Source: Lachnospiraceae bacterium (GTDB lineage Bacteria > Bacillota_A > Clostridia > Lachnospirales > Lachnospiraceae). From it: 11,061 nt of DNA. Where the stretch lies: assembly GCA_024689605.1 (NCBI GenBank), contig JAILDD010000200.1, positions 1 to 11,061 on the forward strand, given 5' to 3'. A program made the position numbers and the translations under genes. Of this stretch, positions 3,100 to 10,666 are shown piece after piece; the first letter of the stretch is position 1; each line of letters begins with the position of its first letter. The notes beneath the pieces were generated by a model. That model searched no databases. It saw only the letters and a program-made list of their open reading frames with translations, and had not been told where the DNA came from.

Positions 3100-3978
3100 A
3101 TGCATTTTGTTGAGACAAAGGGAATACTGACCGGCAACGGCGGGCGGTATGGAATGAATATATACCGGGGCTGTACCCACGGCTGCATATACTGTGACAG
3201 CAGGAGCAAATGCTATCATTTTACTCATCCTTTCGAAGACATAGAGGTTAAGCGGAATGCACCGGAACTGCTTGAAAAGGCATTGAGGTCGAAAAGAAAA
3301 AAATGCATGATCGGTACGGGCGCCATGTCGGATCCTTATATGCATTGTGAAGAGGACCTAAGGCTTACAAGGAAGTGCCTTGAGATCATATTGGAGAATG
3401 GCTTCGGAGTCGCAATACAGACAAAATCAGACCGTATCCTCCGAGACATCAATCTCCTGTCTGAAATCAACCGCAAAGCAAAATGCGTAGTCCAGATGAC
3501 ACTTACAACTTATGATGACGATCTGTGCCGGATACTGGAACCGAATGTATGTAATACAAAGCGCCGCATCGAAGTGCTGGAGATAATGCGGGAAAGAGGG
3601 ATCCCGACGGTCGTGTGGATGACGCCTATACTCCCCTTCATCAATGATACGGAGGAGAACATCACTGCAATACTTAATGAATGTGTCCGGACGGGTGTAA
3701 AAGGCGTTATTGATTTTGGCATGGGACTTACACTCCGGGAAGGCGACAGGGAGTATTTTTATGCCGCCCTTGATAGGAATTTTCCGGGGATGAAAGAGCG
3801 GTATATAAAACAGTATGGAAACTCATATGAACTGCCCAGCCCGAATGCGAAAGAACTGACGGATTGTTTCCGGAGTATATGCAGGGACAACGGGATCATG
3901 TGTAATCCCGATGAGTGTTTCAGGTACATGCAGGAACTGCCGGATAAGTATACGCAGATGAGCATATTCGACATATAA
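3100..3978 (+). CDS. Radical SAM protein, SPL (spore photolyase-like) family
   Basis: This 292-residue protein carries the cluster-binding motif CTHGCIYC at residues 25-32 (C25, C29, C32), spaced CX3CX2C as in radical SAM enzymes, for one [4Fe-4S] cluster that cleaves S-adenosylmethionine. The surrounding N-terminus (NIYRGCTHGCIYCDSRS), the MSDPYMHCEEDLRLTRK segment and VAIQTKSDRILRD resemble the SPL group (Rv2578c-like), relatives of spore photoproduct lyase. The actual substrate of most members is unknown, and I do not claim DNA repair for this one. GGAG at 3091-3094 supports ATG 3100. It is separated from sfsA by 79 nt containing A and T runs but no convincing terminator. Confidence 0.88.
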   Translation: MHFVETKGILTGNGGRYGMNIYRGCTHGCIYCDSRSKCYHFTHPFEDIEVKRNAPELLEKALRSKRKKCMIGTGAMSDPYMHCEEDLRLTRKCLEIILENGFGVAIQTKSDRILRDINLLSEINRKAKCVVQMTLTTYDDDLCRILEPNVCNTKRRIEVLEIMRERGIPTVVWMTPILPFINDTEENITAILNECVRTGVKGVIDFGMGLTLREGDREYFYAALDRNFPGMKERYIKQYGNSYELPSPNAKELTDCFRSICRDNGIMCNPDECFRYMQELPDKYTQMSIFDI

Positions 3979-4030
3979 GTTTCGTATGGGCTTATCTTCT
4001 AAATGCCCGAAATTAAGGGATGACACGGAT

Positions 4031-4060
4031 CGTATCACTGATGTGACGATACGTTTCTTT
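4031..4060 (+). terminator. Possible weak intrinsic terminator after the SPL gene
   Basis: CGTATC at 4031-4036 pairs with GATACG at 4048-4053 across an 11-base loop, which has a little extra pairing (CAC/GTG). A broken T run (TTTCTTT) follows. It lies about 50 nt after the SPL stop codon and before the PAP2 gene. The short stem and interrupted T tract make it a modest candidate. Confidence 0.4.
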
Positions 4061-4136
4061 CCATCTTCATGGTTCTTTGATACTTTCATATTAACGAACG
4101 CAAACAGGCAATATTGTATGAAAGGATGAAGAGAAC

Positions 4137-4820
4137 ATGAAAGAAAAAAGAAATTTATTTACAGGGGTTGGGATGATCATTGCTTTTGCCTTGTGGACTG
4201 CTTTGATCCAGTGCGTTGACGTGAAAGACGTAGGGCAGAATGGAACGAAGGTCGGGTTTGCTGATTTTAATGTATGGTTCCACCAGCTGACCGGAGTTCA
4301 CCTGACGATTTATACGATCACGGACTGGTTGGGACTTGTTCCTATATTTATATGTATGTGCTTCGGTGTGCTGGGGCTTGTGCAGCTGATAAAGAGACGG
4401 AGCCTGCTCAGGGTTGATCCGGATATTCTTCTATTGGGTGTATACTATGTGATAGTTATAGCCTGCTACCTGGTCTTTGAGATGATTCCGATCAATTATA
4501 GACCTGTGCTAATAGAGGGAAGGCTGGAAGCATCATATCCGTCTTCTACTACATTACTGGTGCTTTCTGTGATGCCGACATTGATGGTTCAGGCATATAG
4601 GCGGGTGGAGAATTTGCTTATAAGAAAAGCTGCGGCAGTGTTTGTGATTGTTTTTTCATTATTTATGGTTACAGGAAGGGTTATAGCAGGGGTACATTGG
4701 GCAACTGATATAATCGGTTCAATACTAATAAGTGCGGGATTGTTTATGCTGTACTTGTCAGCAGTTTTGTATACGGATAAAGTAAGGAAAGCCAAAGGGA
4801 GTAAAGATGGAGTTCAATGA
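4137..4820 (+). CDS. PAP2-like integral membrane protein with altered catalytic motifs
   Basis: The 227-residue protein has about five to six hydrophobic helices (near residues 9-25, 60-85, 97-114, 138-153, 165-180, 190-212). The PAP2 phosphatase layout is visible: YRP at 121-123 (motif 1), YPSSTT at 134-139 where PSGH is usual (motif 2), and TGRVIAGVHWATD at 179-191 (motif 3, with R181, H187 and D191). Classical members use Lys before RP and a His in motif 2; here motif 2 has Thr instead of His and no Lys lies seven residues before RP. Membership in the PAP2 superfamily is fairly clear. Activity as a lipid phosphatase is uncertain. AGGATGAAGAG precedes ATG 4137. The 3' end overlaps the XRE gene by 14 nt, which suggests translational coupling. 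Confidence 0.82.
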   Translation: MKEKRNLFTGVGMIIAFALWTALIQCVDVKDVGQNGTKVGFADFNVWFHQLTGVHLTIYTITDWLGLVPIFICMCFGVLGLVQLIKRRSLLRVDPDILLLGVYYVIVIACYLVFEMIPINYRPVLIEGRLEASYPSSTTLLVLSVMPTLMVQAYRRVENLLIRKAAAVFVIVFSLFMVTGRVIAGVHWATDIIGSILISAGLFMLYLSAVLYTDKVRKAKGSKDGVQ

Positions 4821-9597: not shown

Positions 9598-9627
9598 AAA
9601 AGCGTGATTCTTTTTCAGCAAGTAGAA

Positions 9628-9656
9628 TTGTACTGGCTGCTTGTGCGTGATATAAT
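9628..9656 (+). promoter_or_regulatory. Extended -10 promoter buried in the terminator hairpin
   Basis: TTGTAC (9628-9633), 17 bases, then TATAAT (9651-9656), with TG at 9648-9649 giving a TGnTATAAT extended -10. It lies across the left arm and loop of the terminator. If active it would start near 9663 and give a leader of roughly 160 nt for the Rpn gene. It may instead be fortuitous. Confidence 0.35.
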
Positions 9657-9675
9657 CCACGCATAAGCAGTTTTT
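9637..9675 (+). terminator. Strong intrinsic terminator after the WYL cassette
   Basis: CTGCTTGTGCGTG (9637-9649) pairs with CACGCATAAGCAG (9658-9670) through 13 pairs including one G-T, with an 8-base loop and a run of five T (9671-9675). It ends the six-gene unit that starts at 5971. The loop contains TATAAT, see the promoter entry at 9628-9656. Confidence 0.85.
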
Positions 9676-9711
9676 CTATATTATAAATTTCTAACGAGCG
9701 TCGGCTCATTC

Positions 9712-9739
9712 TTGTAATTCTGAAATTCCTGCTTATGAT
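9712..9739 (+). promoter_or_regulatory. Candidate promoter for the Rpn gene
   Basis: TTGTAA (9712-9717), a 16-base spacer and TATGAT (9734-9739) match the -35 and -10 boxes at 4/6 and 5/6. A start near 9746 would give a leader of about 75 nt to ATG 9821. This is an alternative to the promoter inside the upstream terminator. Confidence 0.4.
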
Positions 9740-9820
9740 TCCAAGAAAACCGGCAGGGATATAAGGTGTTTAGTTTGCTATCTTTTTCTCTGCCAGCAAT
9801 TGTGCAAAGGAGAGAAAAAT

Positions 9821-10666
9821 ATGGGAAAAACAAAGACTGCAAAGAGTTATGAGGAACTTAAGTTCAGTGACGACTTCATGTTCGGAAAGATAATGGAGGA
9901 CAAGGAACTCTGCCGGGAGGTACTGGAGTGCCTGCTTCAGCAGCCGGTAGGTGAACTGACCGAGGTGCAGACACAGCGCGAGTTCCGTTATACATCTGAC
10001 GGAAAGCCTATCCGTCTGGATGTATATAATGAGGACAGCGACGGCAGTATATATGATGCTGAGATGGAAAATCTGAATCATAAATCGGTCGAAAGTCATC
10101 AGCTTCCCAGACGGAGCAGGTTTTATCAGGGGGCAATTGATATCGATTTCATGGATAAGAAGTTTTCTTATAAGCTTCTTCCGGAGAGCAGGGTGATCTT
10201 CATTTGTACATTTGATCCGTTTAAGATGGGACATAGCAGATATACGTTCCGGGAGCGATGTGATGAAAATCCGGAAATATGTCTTAATGACGGAACTGAG
10301 AAAGTGTTCTATAATTGTAAGTACGAAGGTGAAGATATTCCGGATGGTATCAGACATTTGTACGAATTTATTGGTACCGGTAATGCGAGTGACGAACTGA
10401 CAGAGAAACTGGATTCTGCCGTAGCAAAAGCACATAGGAACGAAATCTGGAGGACGCAGTACATGAAAGAATGGGTAGTGATACAGGATGCGAGGGATGA
10501 AGGCCGTGAGGAAGGTCGTGAGGAAGGCCGTGAGGAAGAACGGTATGAAGTAATCTCACGTATGCTGAGTTCCGGCAAAACTGCTGAGGAAATATCAGAT
10601 TTCTTCGATTATCCCATAGAGCAGGTGAAAGCGGTGGAAAAGGAACTGCTGGTTTCTGTTGATTAA
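9821..10666 (+). CDS. rpn: Rpn family recombination-promoting nuclease (PD-(D/E)XK)
   Basis: This 281-residue protein matches the Rpn/putative transposase family (PDDEXK_2). The N-terminal motif LKFSDDFMFGKIMEDKELCR (13-32) is followed by the nuclease core IRLDVYNEDSDG (64-75) with D67, and AEMEN (80-84) with E81 and E83, where the family usually has ExQ. HKSVESHQLPRRSRFYQG and the ESRVIFICTFDPF strand complete the domain. A charged hinge (DEGREEGREEGREEE) leads to a small C-terminal helical part (MLSSGKTAEEISDFF). Rpn proteins in E. coli cut DNA, promote RecA-independent recombination and act in phage defence. AGGAG at 9808-9812 fixes ATG 9821; an upstream in-frame TTG at 9800 is unneeded. 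It has its own terminator and is a single-gene unit. Confidence 0.92.
   Translation: MGKTKTAKSYEELKFSDDFMFGKIMEDKELCREVLECLLQQPVGELTEVQTQREFRYTSDGKPIRLDVYNEDSDGSIYDAEMENLNHKSVESHQLPRRSRFYQGAIDIDFMDKKFSYKLLPESRVIFICTFDPFKMGHSRYTFRERCDENPEICLNDGTEKVFYNCKYEGEDIPDGIRHLYEFIGTGNASDELTEKLDSAVAKAHRNEIWRTQYMKEWVVIQDARDEGREEGREEGREEERYEVISRMLSSGKTAEEISDFFDYPIEQVKAVEKELLVSVD
10463..10666 (+). CDS. Candidate intragenic short Rpn product (RpnS-like, 67 aa)
   Basis: Inside the Rpn gene, GGAGG (10449-10453) stands nine bases before the in-frame ATG at 10463-10465 (residue M215). Translation from it would give a 67-residue protein starting MKEWVVIQDARDEG and ending with the C-terminal helical part (SSGKTAEEISDFF). 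For E. coli Rpn proteins an internally started short form has been reported to block the toxic full-length nuclease. The position at the start of the hinge and the near-consensus ribosome binding site fit that pattern. Because the GGAGG also encodes Trp-Arg it may be coincidental; expression is not shown. Confidence 0.45.
   Translation: MKEWVVIQDARDEGREEGREEGREEERYEVISRMLSSGKTAEEISDFFDYPIEQVKAVEKELLVSVD
10499..10534 (+). repeat. Three in-frame 12-bp tandem repeats in the Rpn gene
   Basis: GAAGGCCGTGAG occurs at 10499-10510 and 10523-10534, with GAAGGTCGTGAG at 10511-10522. They encode EGRE three times in the hinge between nuclease domain and C-terminal part. A partial fourth copy (GAAGAACGG) follows. 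Changes in copy number would keep the frame and alter hinge length. Confidence 0.85.

Follow-up and report, generated by a model that had tools for sequence, protein, structure and literature searches.

Synonymous constraint on a probable internal translation start in an rpn nuclease gene from Lachnospiraceae and its predicted RpnS product

The rpn locus and its predicted products

The stretch of DNA analysed here, called the window, comprises 11,061 nucleotides of contig JAILDD010000200.1 from a Lachnospiraceae bacterium (assembly GCA_024689605.1). It carries an rpn gene with the following features, each given with its basis:

9626 to 9820, plus strand: leader with a hairpin and T-rich tail (9635-9672); blastn, hairpin prediction
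9807 to 9812, plus strand: ribosome-binding site (RBS) of RpnL, AAGGAG, 8 nt 5' of ATG 9821; sequence
9821 to 10666, plus strand: rpn gene encoding RpnL, 281 aa; TIGR01784 (91.3 bits), AlphaFold2, alignment
10449 to 10453, plus strand: internal RBS, GGAGG, formed by Trp210 (TGG) and Arg211 (AGG); sequence, codon conservation
10463 to 10666, plus strand: internal open reading frame (ORF) from Met215, predicted RpnS of 67 aa; conservation, profile match
10502 to 10537, plus strand: three 12-bp repeats encoding GREE-GREE-GREE, residues 228-239; sequence, direct repeat with a spacing of 12

A preliminary description of the window had presumed an Rpn nuclease and had pointed to a GGAGG nine bases 5' of an in-frame ATG that would yield a product of 67 residues. 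Direct reading bore out these coordinates: the spacer occupies 10454-10462, the ATG at 10463-10465 is Met215 in the frame of the long gene, and the stop codon lies at 10664-10666. Membership of the Rpn family was confirmed by the score of the protein against TIGR01784, 91.3 bits at a curated cut-off of 52.1 bits; PF12784 scored 27.8 at a cut-off of 27.4. GGAGG at about such a distance precedes 3 of 327 plus-strand and none of 162 minus-strand ATGs of the window, and one of the three plus-strand cases, ATG 7407, opens a different predicted gene. Taken alone, this pattern within a single window is weak evidence for an internal start.

Leader and gene align by blastn with the two closest relatives, L002 (80.7% over 9626-10650) and L001 (80.6% over 9637-10650). 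None of the 53 blastn hits lay outside the gene unit, most loci carrying at most about 3 kb of flank. The hairpin with its T tail and the leader are common to L001 and L002, as if gene and leader were mobile together.

The AlphaFold2 model of the window RpnL (mean pLDDT 90.8, 61 sequences) consists of a mixed N-terminal domain followed by helices at residues 208-250, 255-262 and 266-280, with Met215 close to where the long helix begins. The nuclease-like part extends to about residue 190 and is followed by the helical C-terminus; weak structural matches to PD-(D/E)XK nucleases fall within residues 5-192. Asp67 and Glu81, each found in 115 of 117 aligned genes, and a third position, Glu83 in the window, are presumably the catalytic residues of this fold; across the 117 genes the third position is Gln in 88 and Glu in 23. 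A profile of 36 C-terminal domains matched RpnS, represented by five E. coli sequences, with a probability of 96.9% in hhalign. Residue 8 of the window product stands opposite residue 5 of RpnAS (structure 7TH0), so that the earlier statement of a start at the matching position is a fair one, the window start lying about three residues earlier. The GREE repeats begin at residue 228, 13 residues past Met215 and inside the published range of 8-20 residues for four-residue repeats in Rpn proteins (PMC10327210, available text). Judged from these sequence comparisons, the product predicted from the internal ORF is an RpnS.

Synonymous constraint at the internal start

Relatives were collected as 46 loci from a peptide-pattern search with six patterns, as paralogs found by searching five genomes, and by a TIGR01784 search of 120 genomes of the same family, at least 80 of which gave a match; 40 further regions were fetched. 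Loci from the TIGR01784 and wider-phylum searches were drawn from the better matches among those listed. A profile search of 146 loci and the window gave 118 full-length ORFs, of which 117 remained after one redundant sequence was dropped. This set includes the window and is mostly from Lachnospiraceae, with a few genes from Treponema or Synergistales. An RBS was counted where 5 nt or more match the complement of the anti-Shine-Dalgarno sequence at a spacing suited to initiation.

The column of Met215 contains Met in 86 of the 117 genes, encoded by ATG in all 86, and another residue in 31. An RBS precedes the aligned Met in 73 of the 86 genes, as compared with 25.9 expected from synonymous resampling within each gene; seven of the remaining 13 have a 4-nt match and six have none. 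At other internal Met residues of the same genes, an RBS was found in just 24 of 595 cases. Because one of the search patterns, TQYMKEWV, includes Met215, the share of Met among the 46 pattern loci is biased; the pattern does not contain Arg211. Genes recruited by TIGR01784 only had Met in 42 of 67 cases, an RBS in 33 of these 42, and AGG as the Arg codon in 22 of 23.

The codon of Arg211 completes the GGAGG; 60 of 61 genes use AGG here and the remaining one AGA, whereas at the other Arg positions of these genes AGG accounts for 310 of 1234 codons. Arg211 is the most synonymously constrained of 199 codon columns (z 32.2); Ser99 comes next (z 23.6), which may be explained by the two codon boxes of serine. 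On a codon tree, Arg211 required one synonymous change over 61 tips (0.016 per tip), the lowest value of 184 columns, and 12 other Arg columns tested ranged from 0.37 to 0.59 changes per tip. In 38 representatives less than 50% identical, the Arg codon is AGG in 24 of 24 cases, while other Arg positions have AGG in 88 of 470 (p 3e-18, binomial); such raw p-values overstate the significance since the genes share descent, and the tree-based and same-gene controls deal with this kinship.

Replacements at this site follow the same pattern. Where Glu takes the place of Arg, it is encoded by GAG in 13 of 13 cases among the 117 genes, which preserves GGAGG, and in 8 of 8 among the 38 representatives. 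In the 200 full-length genes of a cross-phylum set, Trp-Arg with Met at +5 uses AGG in 59 of 61 cases (one AGA, one CGG), as against 2 of 9 Trp-Arg pairs at other places of these genes and, in other ORFs, 4 of 43. For Trp-Glu, the Glu codon is GAG in 14 of 14 cases at the site and in 21 of 69 elsewhere. Some genes form AAGGAGG or AAAGGAGA at the site from Lys-Glu or Lys-Gly. As the Glu codon GAG retains GGAGG one base later and others build AAGGAGG or AAAGGAGA, what is kept is the nucleotide signal rather than the residue. GGAGG and ATG are hence conserved beyond the codon constraint of Trp-Arg and Met, the comparison that the preliminary description had proposed as a check of its claim.

Internal starts in other Rpn genes and detached C-terminal copies

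In the 31 genes lacking Met215, inspection by eye, which was uncontrolled, found that a site of 5 nt or longer precedes a start codon in the C-terminal part, an ATG in 29 and only a GTG in two. In one subfamily, characterised by the motif EE[LF]xM, the internal start lies about 29 residues further upstream than Met215. The first Glu of this motif is GAG in all 17 genes and the preceding codon always ends in G, giving GGAGGA, against a background of 39% GAG among the Glu codons of these genes. The group of L066 and L074 has an EVKNM start with GGAGGTGA or GGAGGT.

The cross-phylum scan of the 200 full-length genes was permissive, counting every RBS-preceded ATG of the C-terminal part, and because of this the background expected by resampling is high (28-46%). 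Sites were found in 95 of 107 genes from Lachnospiraceae (44.8 expected), 23 of 27 from the wider phylum (11.3 expected), 23 of 26 from Synergistota (11.9 expected), 23 of 35 from Spirochaetota (9.9 expected) and 4 of 4 from E. coli (1.6 expected); the window gene was also positive. As a control, the scan recovered the published rpnA start, Met244 (PMC10327210, available text), the corresponding starts in rpnB, rpnC and rpnE, and the start of ypaA. For rpnD, an annotated pseudogene in K-12 that was translated as is with its stop displayed, a 4-nt match only was obtained. Within the stretch of C-terminus that was scanned, 12 of the 35 Spirochaetota genes had no ATG preceded by a site; three Treponema genomes account for seven of these genes (L034, L036, L042, L149, L155, L158 and L161 in G125, G126 and G128).

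C-terminal domains also occur detached from the nuclease. Broken rpn copies were analysed from stop to stop, and 38 of 50 closed C-terminal-only ORFs contain a site that spans at least 5 nt and precedes an ATG, GTG or TTG, a count made without a shuffle control; the other 12 showed no start with a 5-nt site. By eye, 20 of the 50, including E. coli ypaA, begin at a motif familiar from full-length genes. In strain AB2028 (G001; L066/L280) and in UBA4364 (G003; L281), the stop codon of RpnL is directly followed by GCGGAGGTGAAG, three bases and an ATG. The likeness of these copies to the gene interior begins, by eye, at the RBS or a few bases from it, and their repeat count is unlike that of the preceding RpnL. 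The two junctions are closely alike and may go back to one single event. A third genome (G134, L274) has two copies behind an RpnL gene; they differ in repeat number, and their likeness starts further upstream of the RBS. A truncated copy, L016, has TGA in place of the Trp codon, yet has kept AAGGA and the ATG.

Genome G003 contains at least five C-terminal-only rpn pieces (L016 at 3836-4204, L025 at 3-290, L029, L040 and L043), each of which retains the internal ATG behind GGAGG or AAGGA; L025 and L040 reach contig ends. Among the matches listed, short open frames that match only the C-terminal part of Rpn are numerous in two Synergistota genomes (G433 and G447), as if orphan RpnS domains were gathered there. 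Some of these frames sit at contig ends, and the fetched ones have starts of mixed kinds.

Proposed function and relation to known Rpn systems

The conservation of RBS and codons, the sites in other subfamilies, the detached copies and the match to RpnS together indicate that the internal start is under selection. In the relatives, the start signal is conserved to a much greater degree than the encoded protein demands, and the signal is very probably real.

Internal RpnS products were described for five E. coli genes by Zhong et al. (2023; PMC10327210, in the available text, as throughout). These products are visible by immunoblot, RpnS blocks the growth inhibition by RpnL, the two proteins form a two-plus-two complex with significantly less nuclease activity, and one plasmid rpn gene protects against phage. 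The same work reports that a C. difficile rpn gene yields RpnS in E. coli and that this product is lost on mutation of the predicted RBS and start, and it records rpn genes from 34 bacterial and two archaeal phyla. The preliminary description had suggested that the arrangement of toxin and antitoxin in one gene extends to Firmicutes; the selection on the internal start in the relatives agrees with it, while the reach to Firmicutes was already in print with the C. difficile gene. Further Rpn literature among the matches listed comprises Kingston et al. 2017 (PMC5350276) and, as mentions, PMC1913061 and PMC10469882. No codon-level test of an Rpn internal start was found among the literature matches listed, subscription papers and supplements being outside this scope; as far as searched, the new elements are the evidence at codon level and the occurrence of detached copies in bacteria other than E. 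coli.

The window gene resembles E. coli RpnAL/RpnAS and RpnB to RpnE in combining a nuclease, an internal RBS with ATG and a helical C-terminal domain with four-residue repeats. It differs from RpnA, the N-terminus of which belongs to Pfam Transposase_31 rather than TIGR01784/PDDEXK_2, and in the size of its internal product (67 aa as compared with 49 aa for RpnAS). The C. difficile gene, likened here by its published description, is similar in its Gram-positive origin and in its internal start, demonstrated by product loss; toxicity and neutralisation are not among the results reported for it in the available text (PMC10327210). E. coli ypaA, a standalone RpnS downstream of rpnE, corresponds to the C-terminal domain alone with the same AAGGAG start. 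Some Lachnospiraceae have equivalents of ypaA directly downstream of an RpnL gene, whereas in the window only the internal form was seen. In E. coli, a promoter of RpnS lies within the gene. The window contains a sigma-70-like match (10 of 12) at 10287-10315 with a TATAAT-like box, which reads TAT AAT in 9 of 20 cases and is not conserved beyond codon usage; it therefore lends no support here to an RpnS transcript of its own, such as E. coli has.

We propose that translation from ATG 9821 would produce RpnL, a PD-(D/E)XK nuclease with a C-terminal domain of one long and two short helices, and that translation from ATG 10463, driven by the GGAGG at 10449-10453, would produce RpnS, the C-terminal domain alone. 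RpnS would most likely pair via its long helix with the identical domain of RpnL, as in E. coli, and this pairing would hold the nuclease inactive until some release, perhaps upon phage infection. Since one stretch of DNA encodes both proteins, a change in repeat number would alter toxin and antitoxin together. An antitoxin role of the window RpnS is plausible by analogy with E. coli, on the grounds of homology, start position and repeat distance; for translation of RpnS in this organism, toxicity of the nuclease, its neutralisation by RpnS and anti-phage action, we infer from the same comparison that they may apply here. As a whole, one frame encoding two proteins, with RpnS restraining RpnL, is in our view the likely explanation.

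The internal start might also be real with the small protein serving as a structural partner in an active L2S2 complex and not as an inhibitor. Conservation shows no more than a requirement for the product, RpnL and RpnS of E. coli do assemble two plus two, and other within-gene products such as Cas11d, cited in PMC10327210, are partners. We nevertheless consider this role unlikely for RpnS, as the E. coli complex is significantly less active as a nuclease and RpnS relieves the inhibition of growth.

RBS-like sequences within genes have been proposed to slow ribosomes, and the purine-rich stretch could similarly cause a pause, or be an RNA element, with no new protein started from it. This appears very improbable, because an ATG at a usable distance is conserved along with the site, some detached copies retain the site though the upstream frame is gone, the local RNA structure around the site is no stronger than that of shuffles (z -0.16), and the E. 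coli products were detected by immunoblot (PMC10327210). That the GGAGG is a chance by-product of codon choice in a protein requiring Trp-Arg and Met could draw on the three GGAGG-preceded ATGs among 327 and on the strong conservation of Trp210 and Met215 as residues in an alignment of genes chosen for Met215, but it is refuted by the codon tests (AGG in 60 of 61 genes at the site against 25% elsewhere and in just 4 of the 43 Trp-Arg pairs that other ORFs contain, GAG in 13 of 13 and 14 of 14 Glu replacements, AAGGAGG or AAAGGAGA formed from other residues at the same place) and retains a negligible probability, barring some further bias on the Arg211 codon alone.

The detached copies suggest a route by which separate antitoxin genes can arise. 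We tentatively put forward, as a possibility short of an even chance, that an internal antitoxin start is a design rule of Rpn genes across phyla, placed differently in each subfamily with the coding sequence bent to keep it, and that the unit from RBS to stop is a detachable cassette. Duplicated downstream, in some genomes starting at that very RBS, and with varying repeat counts, such cassettes might let genomes amass orphan antitoxins of different specificity. Among the phyla, Bacteroidota make little use of RBSs. The detached copies starting at the internal site and the codon signature are the parts that specialists may not expect. With the present analysis, a finding made mainly in E. coli becomes a testable rule in which codon choice alone marks a hidden start, and many genes of gut and rumen bacteria annotated as putative transposases may encode toxin and antitoxin within a single frame.

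Complete rpn genes that include an internal RBS and ATG are also present on virus-assigned contigs of IMG/VR (L283, L285, L289, L290 and L291).
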